From the NCBI GenBank assembly GCA_902386555.1, contig CABMJJ010000007.1, positions 62,001-126,000 of the forward strand: 64,000 bases of DNA, written 5' to 3'. The DNA is from Candidatus Bilamarchaeum dharawalense. GTDB taxonomy: Archaea; Micrarchaeota; Micrarchaeia; Anstonellales; Bilamarchaeaceae. The notes under the pieces are model-generated. The model did not search any database. It was not told the DNA's origin and worked only from the letters and a program-made list of their open reading frames with translations. The position numbers were made by a program, and so were the translations under genes. Below, piece after piece: positions 7,138 to 61,284 of this stretch (position 1 is the stretch's first letter; each line of letters begins with the position of its first letter).

Positions 7138-7298
7138 GGGCACGTAGCTCAAAGCTTTGAACGCGGCGTTCGAAATTTGCCGCGTAAAGCGCGAGCAACG
7201 GTAGAGCATCCGCTTGGCGCACGCTTTTTTACCAAAAAAGCTTGGCAACAAAGTGTCCATAGTGTGGAAGGCTGGGGGTTCAAATCCCTCCGTGTCCA
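7138..7298 (+). tRNA. tRNA-Ala(GGC), interrupted in the D-loop (about 7153-7198) and anticodon loop (about 7220-7262)
   Basis: Acceptor GGGCACG/CGTGTCC with G3-U70 and A73; D-stem GCTC/GAGC; anticodon stem TCCGC/GTGGA; T-arm GGGGG-TTCAAAT-CCCTC; BHB-like fold around the anticodon intron. Confidence 0.85.
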
Positions 7299-26288: not shown

Positions 26289-26527
26289 AGCATCACCATT
26301 TTTGTTGTATAATAACAGAATACGCTTTTTTCCTCCCAGGATTTTGTTATTAAAAACAATTTTATTATTTTATTTTATGTATTTTACCATTTAAATAGGT
26401 TGGTATTTTATTGGTAGAACGATATAGAGAGTATATTAAAACCTTCCATATCAAAACGAATTCTACAAGTTTCGGGGCCGTGAGGTAACCTGGTATCCTG
26501 CAAGCTTGGGGTGCTTGTTATCTGAGT

Positions 26528-26590
26528 CGCACCTTTTTGAAAAAAAGGTGCGCCAAAAACGGGCTGTTGAAAAACCCTCTCGGGTTTTTG
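26528..26590 (+). repeat. dispersed hairpin element, copy inside tRNA-Pro
   Basis: CGCACCTTTTTGAAAAAAAGGTGCG + CCAAAAACGGGCTGTTG. Confidence 0.65.
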
Positions 26591-26619
26591 GTGAAAACCG
26601 TTTTTTGCTTTCGAGCAAA

Positions 26620-26666
26620 AAACTAGCAAGTCGGTTTTTTGCGCGCTTTTTTACAAAAAAAGCGCA
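26620..26666 (-). repeat. dispersed hairpin element, inverted copy inside tRNA-Pro
   Basis: On the minus strand GCGCTTTTTTTGTAAAAAAGCGCGCAAAAAACCGACTTG. Confidence 0.6.
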
Positions 26667-26728
26667 GAAATTCAAACTTCTCAACTACAAATTCCTGCGG
26701 TTGAGGGGAGTATATCTCAGCGGCCCCA

Positions 26729-26780
26729 CACACTTTTTTAGAAAAAGAGTGTGGCAAAAAAACTGGTTGTATAAACCAGC
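26729..26780 (+). repeat. dispersed hairpin element abutting the 3' end of tRNA-Pro
   Basis: CACACTTTTTTAGAAAAAGAGTGTG + GCAAAAAAACTGGTTGTATAAACCAG. Confidence 0.65.
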
Positions 26781-26786
26781 GGTTTT

Positions 26787-26856
26787 GCGCCCTCGCACTT
26801 GTTGCAACGCAACAAGGCGCACGTTGAACTTCGTTCAATGTTGTTCCCAAAAGGGC
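26787..26856 (+). repeat. structured intergenic element, type 2, copy 2
   Basis: GCCCT/AGGGC outer stem; CTTGTTGC-AAC-GCAACAAG; GGCGCA; TTGAAC-TTC-GTTCAA; same layout as 7053-7133. Confidence 0.6.
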
Positions 26857-26885: not shown

Positions 26886-27536
26886 ATGACAACAGAAAAA
26901 ACTGGATTGCCTGTCAAACAGGAGATTTTTCTTGAGGCCGGTGTACACATCGGAACCAAGATAAGAACAAGCGATATGAGAGAGTATATCTTCAAAAGAA
27001 GAGATGACGGTCTTTACATACTCGACTTGAGGAAAAGTGCTGAAAGACTAGTGAGTGCAGCCAAAATTATATCAAAGTACAAACCAGAAGAGGTTTGTGT
27101 GGTTGCTTCTCGTGTTTATTCCAGCAATCCTGCAAGCAAATTTGCAGAATTAAGCGGAGTAACTTTGGTTAAAGGCCGATTTGTACCTGGAACCATGACC
27201 AATATGAATGTGAGGGGTTTTATGGAACCAAAAATAGTTATGGTCTGTGATCCAAAGGGTGAACACGAAGCACTGGTTGAATGTGCAAAGAACGGTGTTC
27301 CGGTTATTGCACTCTGTGATACGGATAATGAGACCAAATTTGTGGATCATATCATCCCAATAAACAACAAGGGAAAACGATCCTTGGCTCTGATTTTCTA
27401 CATTCTCTCAAGAGAAGTGATGATGGCTCAGGGTAAGATTAAATCCTACGAAGAATTTACCCATGATCTGAATTACTTTGAACAAATGCTTACTGTTGAA
27501 GAACCAGAACAGCCAGTGGAAGAAGAAAAAAAATAA
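26886..27536 (+). CDS. rpsB: 30S ribosomal protein S2
   Basis: FLEAGVHIGTKIRTSDMREYIFKRRDDGLYILDLRK; ATG preceded by AGGAGG. Confidence 0.93.
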   Translation: MTTEKTGLPVKQEIFLEAGVHIGTKIRTSDMREYIFKRRDDGLYILDLRKSAERLVSAAKIISKYKPEEVCVVASRVYSSNPASKFAELSGVTLVKGRFVPGTMTNMNVRGFMEPKIVMVCDPKGEHEALVECAKNGVPVIALCDTDNETKFVDHIIPINNKGKRSLALIFYILSREVMMAQGKIKSYEEFTHDLNYFEQMLTVEEPEQPVEEEKK

Positions 27537-50851: not shown

Positions 50852-50892
50852 AACCAGTTTTTGGCTTTACCTTTTTCCTAAAAAGGTAAAAG
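50852..50892 (-). repeat. dispersed hairpin element abutting the 3' end of tRNA-His
   Basis: Minus strand CTTTTACCTTTTTAGGAAAAAGGTAAAG + CCAAAAACTGGTT. Confidence 0.7.
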
Positions 50893-61157: not shown

Positions 61158-61284
61158 TGCTCCTGCCGCGATTTTCGCCTTTTAGGAAAAGGCGACCCAA
61201 AACTGGTTCGTTATTCCTAAAAATTTGAACGCGGGTATTCAGAGTGAGAGTCTGACATCCTTGACCGGGCTAGATTACAGGAGC
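61158..61284 (-). tRNA. tRNA-Glu(CTC) with about a 52-nt insertion in the T-loop (about 61172-61223)
   Basis: Acceptor GCTCCTG/CAGGAGC plus A73; anticodon arm TCAGA-CTCTCAC-TCTGA; T-stem CCGCG (61234-61230) and CGCGG (61170-61166), loop TTCAAA...T. Confidence 0.85.
61176..61222 (+). repeat. dispersed hairpin element, antisense copy inside the tRNA-Glu T-loop
   Basis: CGCCTTTTAGGAAAAGGCG + ACCCAAAACTGGTTCGTTATTCCTAAAAA. Confidence 0.7.

Follow-up and report, generated by a model that had tools for sequence, protein, structure and literature searches.

The window analysed here, a stretch of 64,000 nucleotides, corresponds to positions 62001-126000 of contig C7 of genome G000, a MAG of 1.27 Mb in 11 contigs that is 88% complete. 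It carries rps2, whose product matches Candidatus Micrarchaeota and 'Ca. ainarchaeum' MAGs, with identities of at most 85%. The following features were assigned at this locus.

26474-26728, plus strand: tRNA-Pro(GGG) gene, immediately upstream of rps2
26474-26526, plus strand: exon 1, with the acceptor 5' strand, D arm, anticodon arm (GGG), variable loop and T-stem 5' strand CTGAG
26527-26670, plus strand: intron 1, 144 nt, at site 53/54, with a central helix, two bulges and an h' helix
26671-26675, plus strand: exon 2, a 5-nt microexon TTCAA (T54-A58 of the T-loop), placed by orthologue comparison and excision tests
26676-26713, plus strand: intron 2, 38 nt, at site 58/59, with a co-varying stem and a conserved apical loop
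26714-26728, plus strand: exon 3, with A59 U60, T-stem 3' strand CTCAG, acceptor 3' strand CGGCCCC and A73
26886-27536, plus strand: rps2 (ribosomal protein S2), used as syntenic marker for finding orthologous loci

Neither ARAGORN nor Rfam reports a tRNA at 26474 on the unedited window. Joined together, the exons form a perfect cloverleaf with GGGGCCG/CGGCCCC as acceptor stem and CAAGC-TTGGGGT-GCTTG as anticodon arm. Removal of both introns gives a 73-nt product that is called tRNA-Pro(ggg) by ARAGORN, while the same program detects no tRNA in the unspliced sequence, in either half-spliced version or in two single-excision versions. The sequence-only reading had described a tRNA-Pro(GGG) with a large T-arm insert, and every feature on which it relied is present: the T-stem halves CTGAG (26522-26526) and CTCAG (26716-26720) are 189 nt apart, TTCAAA is found at 26671-26676, ATTC (26670-26673) and GAGT (26708-26711) are able to pair, and an intron hairpin is formed by CTCAAC (26680-26685) and GTTGAG (26700-26705). 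Its proposal that two excisions would regenerate TTCAAAT, and with it a canonical tRNA, is borne out by the doubly spliced form and by comparison with intronless orthologues. Two adjacent introns around a tiny exon are also retained. A length of 5 nt (TTCAA) fits the exon better than the 6 nt that had been suggested, which shifts the earlier intron coordinates by a single base. An intact second tRNA-Pro(GGG) had been named as an observation that would speak against this reading. None was found in G000, within its 88% completeness, by a search allowing up to three mismatches in the 5' half of the gene. An intact tRNA-Pro at C9:201556 was considered as such a copy and discarded, its anticodon being TGG.

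No group I or group II ribozyme core was matched by Rfam in the window at the gathering threshold, and a self-splicing intron of either group was rejected on this ground and because intron 2 has just 38 nt. Eight other loci, several of them with multi-intron tRNAs, likewise gave no tRNA with Rfam. Genes that escape both ARAGORN and Rfam, like the one described here, help to explain missing tRNAs in such genomes.

The T arm of tRNA-Pro(GGG) in related genomes

Of 59 related genomes, 57 yielded Rps2, and 30 loci (this genome and 29 relatives) were read around rps2. The tRNA-Pro(GGG) gene lies upstream of rps2 in all 30. Its T arm contains both introns in 18 of them, intron 1 only in two, an intron at the second site only in four, and none in six. 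The insert is not there by chance: 17 other genomes of the genus or family have the two-intron architecture ahead of rps2, and the 12 remaining relatives have one-intron or no-intron versions. Exon 1 hardly differs, if at all, between orthologues that have T-arm introns and those that lack them. The six intronless orthologues read CTGAGTTCAAATCTCAG, with TTCAAAT as T-loop. In the two genomes with only the 53/54 intron, this intron is placed between CTGAG and TTCAAATCTCAG (G017) or between CCCAG and TTCAAATCTGGG (G029), and in the four with only the other one (G018, G019, G027 and G030) it sits after TTCAA(A). Three genomes have a third intron in this tRNA, located in the anticodon loop in G016 and G026 and in the D arm in G001. 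On the Rps2 tree the intron states are clustered, five changes being needed versus a mean of 11.2 after shuffling. Two intronless genomes, G021 and G031, are placed among two-intron rows; this is consistent with precise intron loss, in a region of the tree that is weakly resolved.

Splice motifs and splicing enzymes

In intron 1, the four bases ahead of the 3' bulge (CAGA here, 26665-26668) pair with exon bases T48-C-T-G51 (26521-26524). This central helix is bordered by the splice bulges AG|T and AA|T, and the h' helix starts from CGC/GCG. The outer helix is weak, none being convincing (HBh'-like). The central helix co-varies with the T-stem, with TCCC/GGGA in tRNA-Pro of G029, CCTG/CAGG in tRNA-Ile of G000 and CTGG/CCGG in tRNA-Ile of G016. 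Over 27 genes from two tRNA species, 103 of the 108 base pairs are formed. Counting every distinct combination a single time gives 37 pairs versus a shuffled mean of 27.5, and 37 was reached in 2 of 20,000 shuffles. The minimum-energy fold of the whole precursor lacks this helix and has mispaired D and anticodon arms. When the helix is forced, the energy lies only 2.5 kcal/mol above this unconstrained minimum; the result is a canonical 4-bp helix next to a 3-nt AGT bulge (cut AG|T), with h' formed by the two arms of a hairpin element described below. Judged from its TCTG/CAGA helix, its AG|T and AA|T bulges and its co-variation with the T-stem, intron 1 is a predicted bulge-helix-bulge (BHB) intron.

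The motif of intron 2 is more relaxed, with a central helix of 3-4 bp, an AA|N bulge and a 3' bulge of 4-5 nt. Its H helix is formed by G53-T-T-C56 with GAAY (GAGT here), G53 taking part in the pairing. Sixteen intron 2 sequences can be aligned almost without gaps, and eight pairs of the stem show double-sided compensatory changes. In each of the 17 two-intron orthologues whose exon 3 could be delimited, this exon starts with AT, so the 58/59 cut and hence the 5-nt exon are favoured. The apical loop (26686-26699) has the consensus TACAAAYACCTGCG and reads TACAAATTCCTGCG here; its sequence is conserved genus-wide though the surrounding stem is not. As a general intron signature this loop was rejected, exact matches to TWACAAAHACCTGCG in the genus being confined to the tRNA-Pro locus. 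Part of the loop, ACCUGCGG, resembles the 3' strand of helix 45 in 16S rRNA, and pairing of its ACC with the D-loop bases G18-G19-U20 is conceivable. No meaning is claimed for either, as there is no co-variation and both are at about chance level.

G000 encodes both a splicing endonuclease of the ARMAN type (epsilon2) and the RtcB ligase (contig C7, E = 5e-168). The endonuclease (391 aa, L074:889-2061, contig C3) matches over residues 4-391 the enzyme of Ca. Micrarchaeum acidiphilum ARMAN-2 (4fz2; PMC12397907), with E = 3e-131. According to PMC4033280 and PMC12397907, the epsilon2 enzyme cleaves non-canonical introns at a range of tRNA positions, and with this full-length sequence match a three-unit endonuclease of broad substrate range is therefore present. 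In contrast to the ARMAN-2 enzyme, its proposed substrates would include T-loop introns with 3' bulges of 4-5 nt. The tRNA_int_endo domain also occurs in a second, short protein (166 aa, L075:1459-1959, contig C11) encoded besides the three-unit enzyme.

Proposed ordered excision and alternative readings

We consider it very probable, at roughly 0.9, that the locus is a functional tRNA-Pro(GGG) gene in which two BHB-type introns at 53/54 and 58/59, removed by proteins, flank the 5-nt exon TTCAA. The gene structure, the junctions, the conservation and the presence of the enzymes are established here; cleavage at this tRNA, and the departure of intron 1 ahead of intron 2, are inferred. Pairing of CAGA at the 3' side of intron 1 with T48-G51 would define this intron and present the bulges AG|T and AA|T, which the epsilon2 endonuclease would cut before RtcB joins the ends. 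The rejoined CTGAG-TTCAA could next base-pair, through the H helix and the T-stem, with the 3' side of intron 2. This new pairing would expose AA|N and N|AT for a second excision that leaves TTCAAAT as T-loop. Intron 1 is long here because it hosts the hairpin element common to other tRNA introns of G000.

The length of the insert, its repeated hairpins and the failure of standard tools to detect a tRNA could also point to a pseudogene whose T arm was disrupted when the hairpin element and other debris inserted into it. This is extremely improbable given that the exons still yield a perfect cloverleaf, that the exons, TTCAA and CAGA are maintained across the genus, and that the CCT and CCC codons are used in G000 yet no other gene for this tRNA was found. 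The insert could instead be a single contiguous intron, or be retained as an extended T arm, its internal TTCAA then being a coincidence of the kind expected for a 5-mer that is not rare in AT-rich DNA. However, TTCAA occupies the same position in all two-intron orthologues, and the one-intron relatives fix each junction. Moreover, a single contiguous excision, which the sequence-only reading had also named as a finding that would count against it, produces a TTCRANN T-loop in 0 of 16 two-intron orthologues. We regard this explanation as very improbable.

Two further alternatives keep both introns. A second cut at 59/60 would give a 6-nt exon TTCAAA, with intron 2 at 26677-26714 and an identical mature tRNA. 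In G000 the junction can indeed slide by one base owing to A26676 and A26714, and G027 (L056) fits a canonical motif at 59/60. Where C or T follows TTCAA, as in G013 and G014, only the 58/59 cut restores TTCAAAT, and the AT at the start of exon 3 in the 17 delimited orthologues also disagrees with a cut at 59/60, which is thus unlikely. The order of excision could likewise be free, intron 2 being removed first by way of A26670 of intron 1, because the ATTC/GAGT pairing can form in the unspliced G000 precursor. This has a modest chance of being right. In G003 and G005 the fourth pair of the H helix involves a partner C that fits exon G53 but not the C or A with which intron 1 ends, so the full helix there would form only once intron 1 is gone. 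This argues for the prior departure of intron 1, as does the fact that the T-stem strand is occupied by the helix of intron 1 while this intron is present.

A second tRNA, a dispersed hairpin element and known systems

The same arrangement is found in the tRNA-Ile(UAU) gene of G000 (C3:71596-71886, L114), which has four introns and again a TTCAA(A) exon in the T-loop.

71611-71696: D-loop intron
Anticodon loop: second intron
71778-71833: intron at 53/54
From 71839: intron after TTCAA(A), at 58/59 or 59/60

Its spliced form, with the T-loop taken as TTCAAAT, is recognised by ARAGORN. Both T-arm introns occur in six of the 15 genus genomes in which the gene was recovered (G000, G004, G008, G009, G015 and G016); the other nine have the first only (one, G010), the second only (seven) or none (one, G003). 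The total reaches four introns in G000 and G004. In the two-intron Ile genes (L154, L157, L158, L162, L163 and L164), the second T-arm intron ends in a conserved TGCGG before CT-CTCCG and is without the GAA pairing present in tRNA-Pro.

Intron 1 of tRNA-Pro had been said to consist largely of inverted copies of a dispersed hairpin element, and two such copies were located in it. The element is organised as X-CTTTTTA..AAAAAG-X'-GCCAAAAACTGGTTGTT, i.e. a hairpin plus a linker, and its copies look hairpin-based.

26528-26568, plus strand: hairpin element copy in intron 1, CGCACCTTTTTGAAAAAAAGGTGCG + CCAAAAACGGGCTGTT
26618-26665 (start approximate), minus strand: second, inverted copy in intron 1
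26551-26646, plus strand: interior of intron 1 common to the anticodon-loop intron of tRNA-Asp(GTC) (G000:C9:75543-75629)
26728-26790, plus strand: third copy, directly 3' of tRNA-Pro, ACACACTTTTTTAGAAAAAGAGTGTGGCAAAAAAACTGGTTG...

Copies were identified by searches and by reading of short stretches. They occur in introns of tRNA-Pro, Asp, Ile, Glu, Lys and others, in a few intergenic places, directly 3' of tRNA-Pro, tRNA-His and tRNA-Gly (L002), and at the 3' end of SRP RNA (L088). In G014, most of ten half-copies are visibly within tRNA genes. The raw core CTTTTN{2,7}AAAAG is only about twofold enriched (86 versus 45 in the control) and was rejected as a marker when taken alone; the hairpin plus linker serves this role. 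As the core of intron 1 of tRNA-Pro recurs at 95% identity over 88 nt in the tRNA-Asp intron (E = 3.5e-34), the element appears to spread among tRNA introns. It could be an archaeal counterpart of introners, spreading mainly into tRNA introns. By invading 53/54 and 58/59 repeatedly, it could have given at least two tRNAs a 5-nt exon in the T-loop and one tRNA gene as many as four introns; splicing would then proceed stepwise, the motif for the second excision being created by the first ligation. We consider the arguments for and against this scenario to be evenly balanced.

It is already known that one tRNA can hold several BHB introns at non-canonical sites and in close proximity. Such introns and the multi-intron tRNAs of Thermoproteales, ARMAN-1/2 and Atabeyarchaeia share the enzyme class and motif logic with the present case (PMC8450103; PMC4033280; PMC11291895), including close introns that need stepwise removal; some are so close that one must go before the second motif can form (PMC8450103). 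The sequence-only reading is supported in proposing a microexon. Its word extraordinary is somewhat strong because either intron occurs alone in relatives, the arrangement is repeated in tRNA-Ile(UAU), and this close-intron class was known (PMC8450103). What differs from those systems is the 5-nt T-loop exon between 53/54 and 58/59, genus-wide and in two tRNA species, and the number of introns, the four predicted in tRNA-Ile(UAU) exceeding the archaeal maximum of three per tRNA that is given in PMC8450103 and PMC4033280. Transposition of introns between tRNAs has been reported in Thermoproteales (Fujishima 2010, as cited in PMC4033280 and PMC10714607). As far as these citing papers relate it, the likeness lies in a near-identical intron carried by more than one tRNA of a genome (Pro and Asp here), and the differences in the lineage and in the unit, which is here a hairpin plus linker also found 3' of tRNAs and of SRP RNA. 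A eukaryotic case involves the same tRNA identity and similar intron sites; paired T-arm introns are not described in its abstract. In the open literature, we found no description of a genus-conserved 5-nt T-loop exon between two introns that is repeated in a second tRNA, nor of four introns in one tRNA.

The gain, multiplication and loss of tRNA introns are still debated, mostly on the basis of Thermoproteales. In this genus and its family, close relatives represent all four intron states at one position, the 5-nt exon recurs in two tRNA species, a mobile-looking hairpin is shared and the endonuclease belongs to a well-studied type, so that gain, loss and ordered splicing become directly testable.

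Several other tRNA loci of this genome deserve mention. In the window, a tRNA-Glu(CTC) gene on the minus strand (61158-61284) has a single T-loop intron that is largely hairpin element, a tRNA at 7138-7298 has D-loop and anticodon-loop introns with the hairpin core in the latter, and the element lies directly 3' of tRNA-His at 50866-50890. The locus L140 (G000:C7:39.9-40.3k), missed by Rfam, is probably a tRNA-Arg(GCG) with introns in the D arm, anticodon loop and T-loop. Finally, two tRNA-Leu genes, L144 (end of C1) and L153 (C9:577.3k), have a near-identical T-loop intron, CTTGGTCTGGYRACCAAATTTGCCAGCAAAGCTGACAAT.
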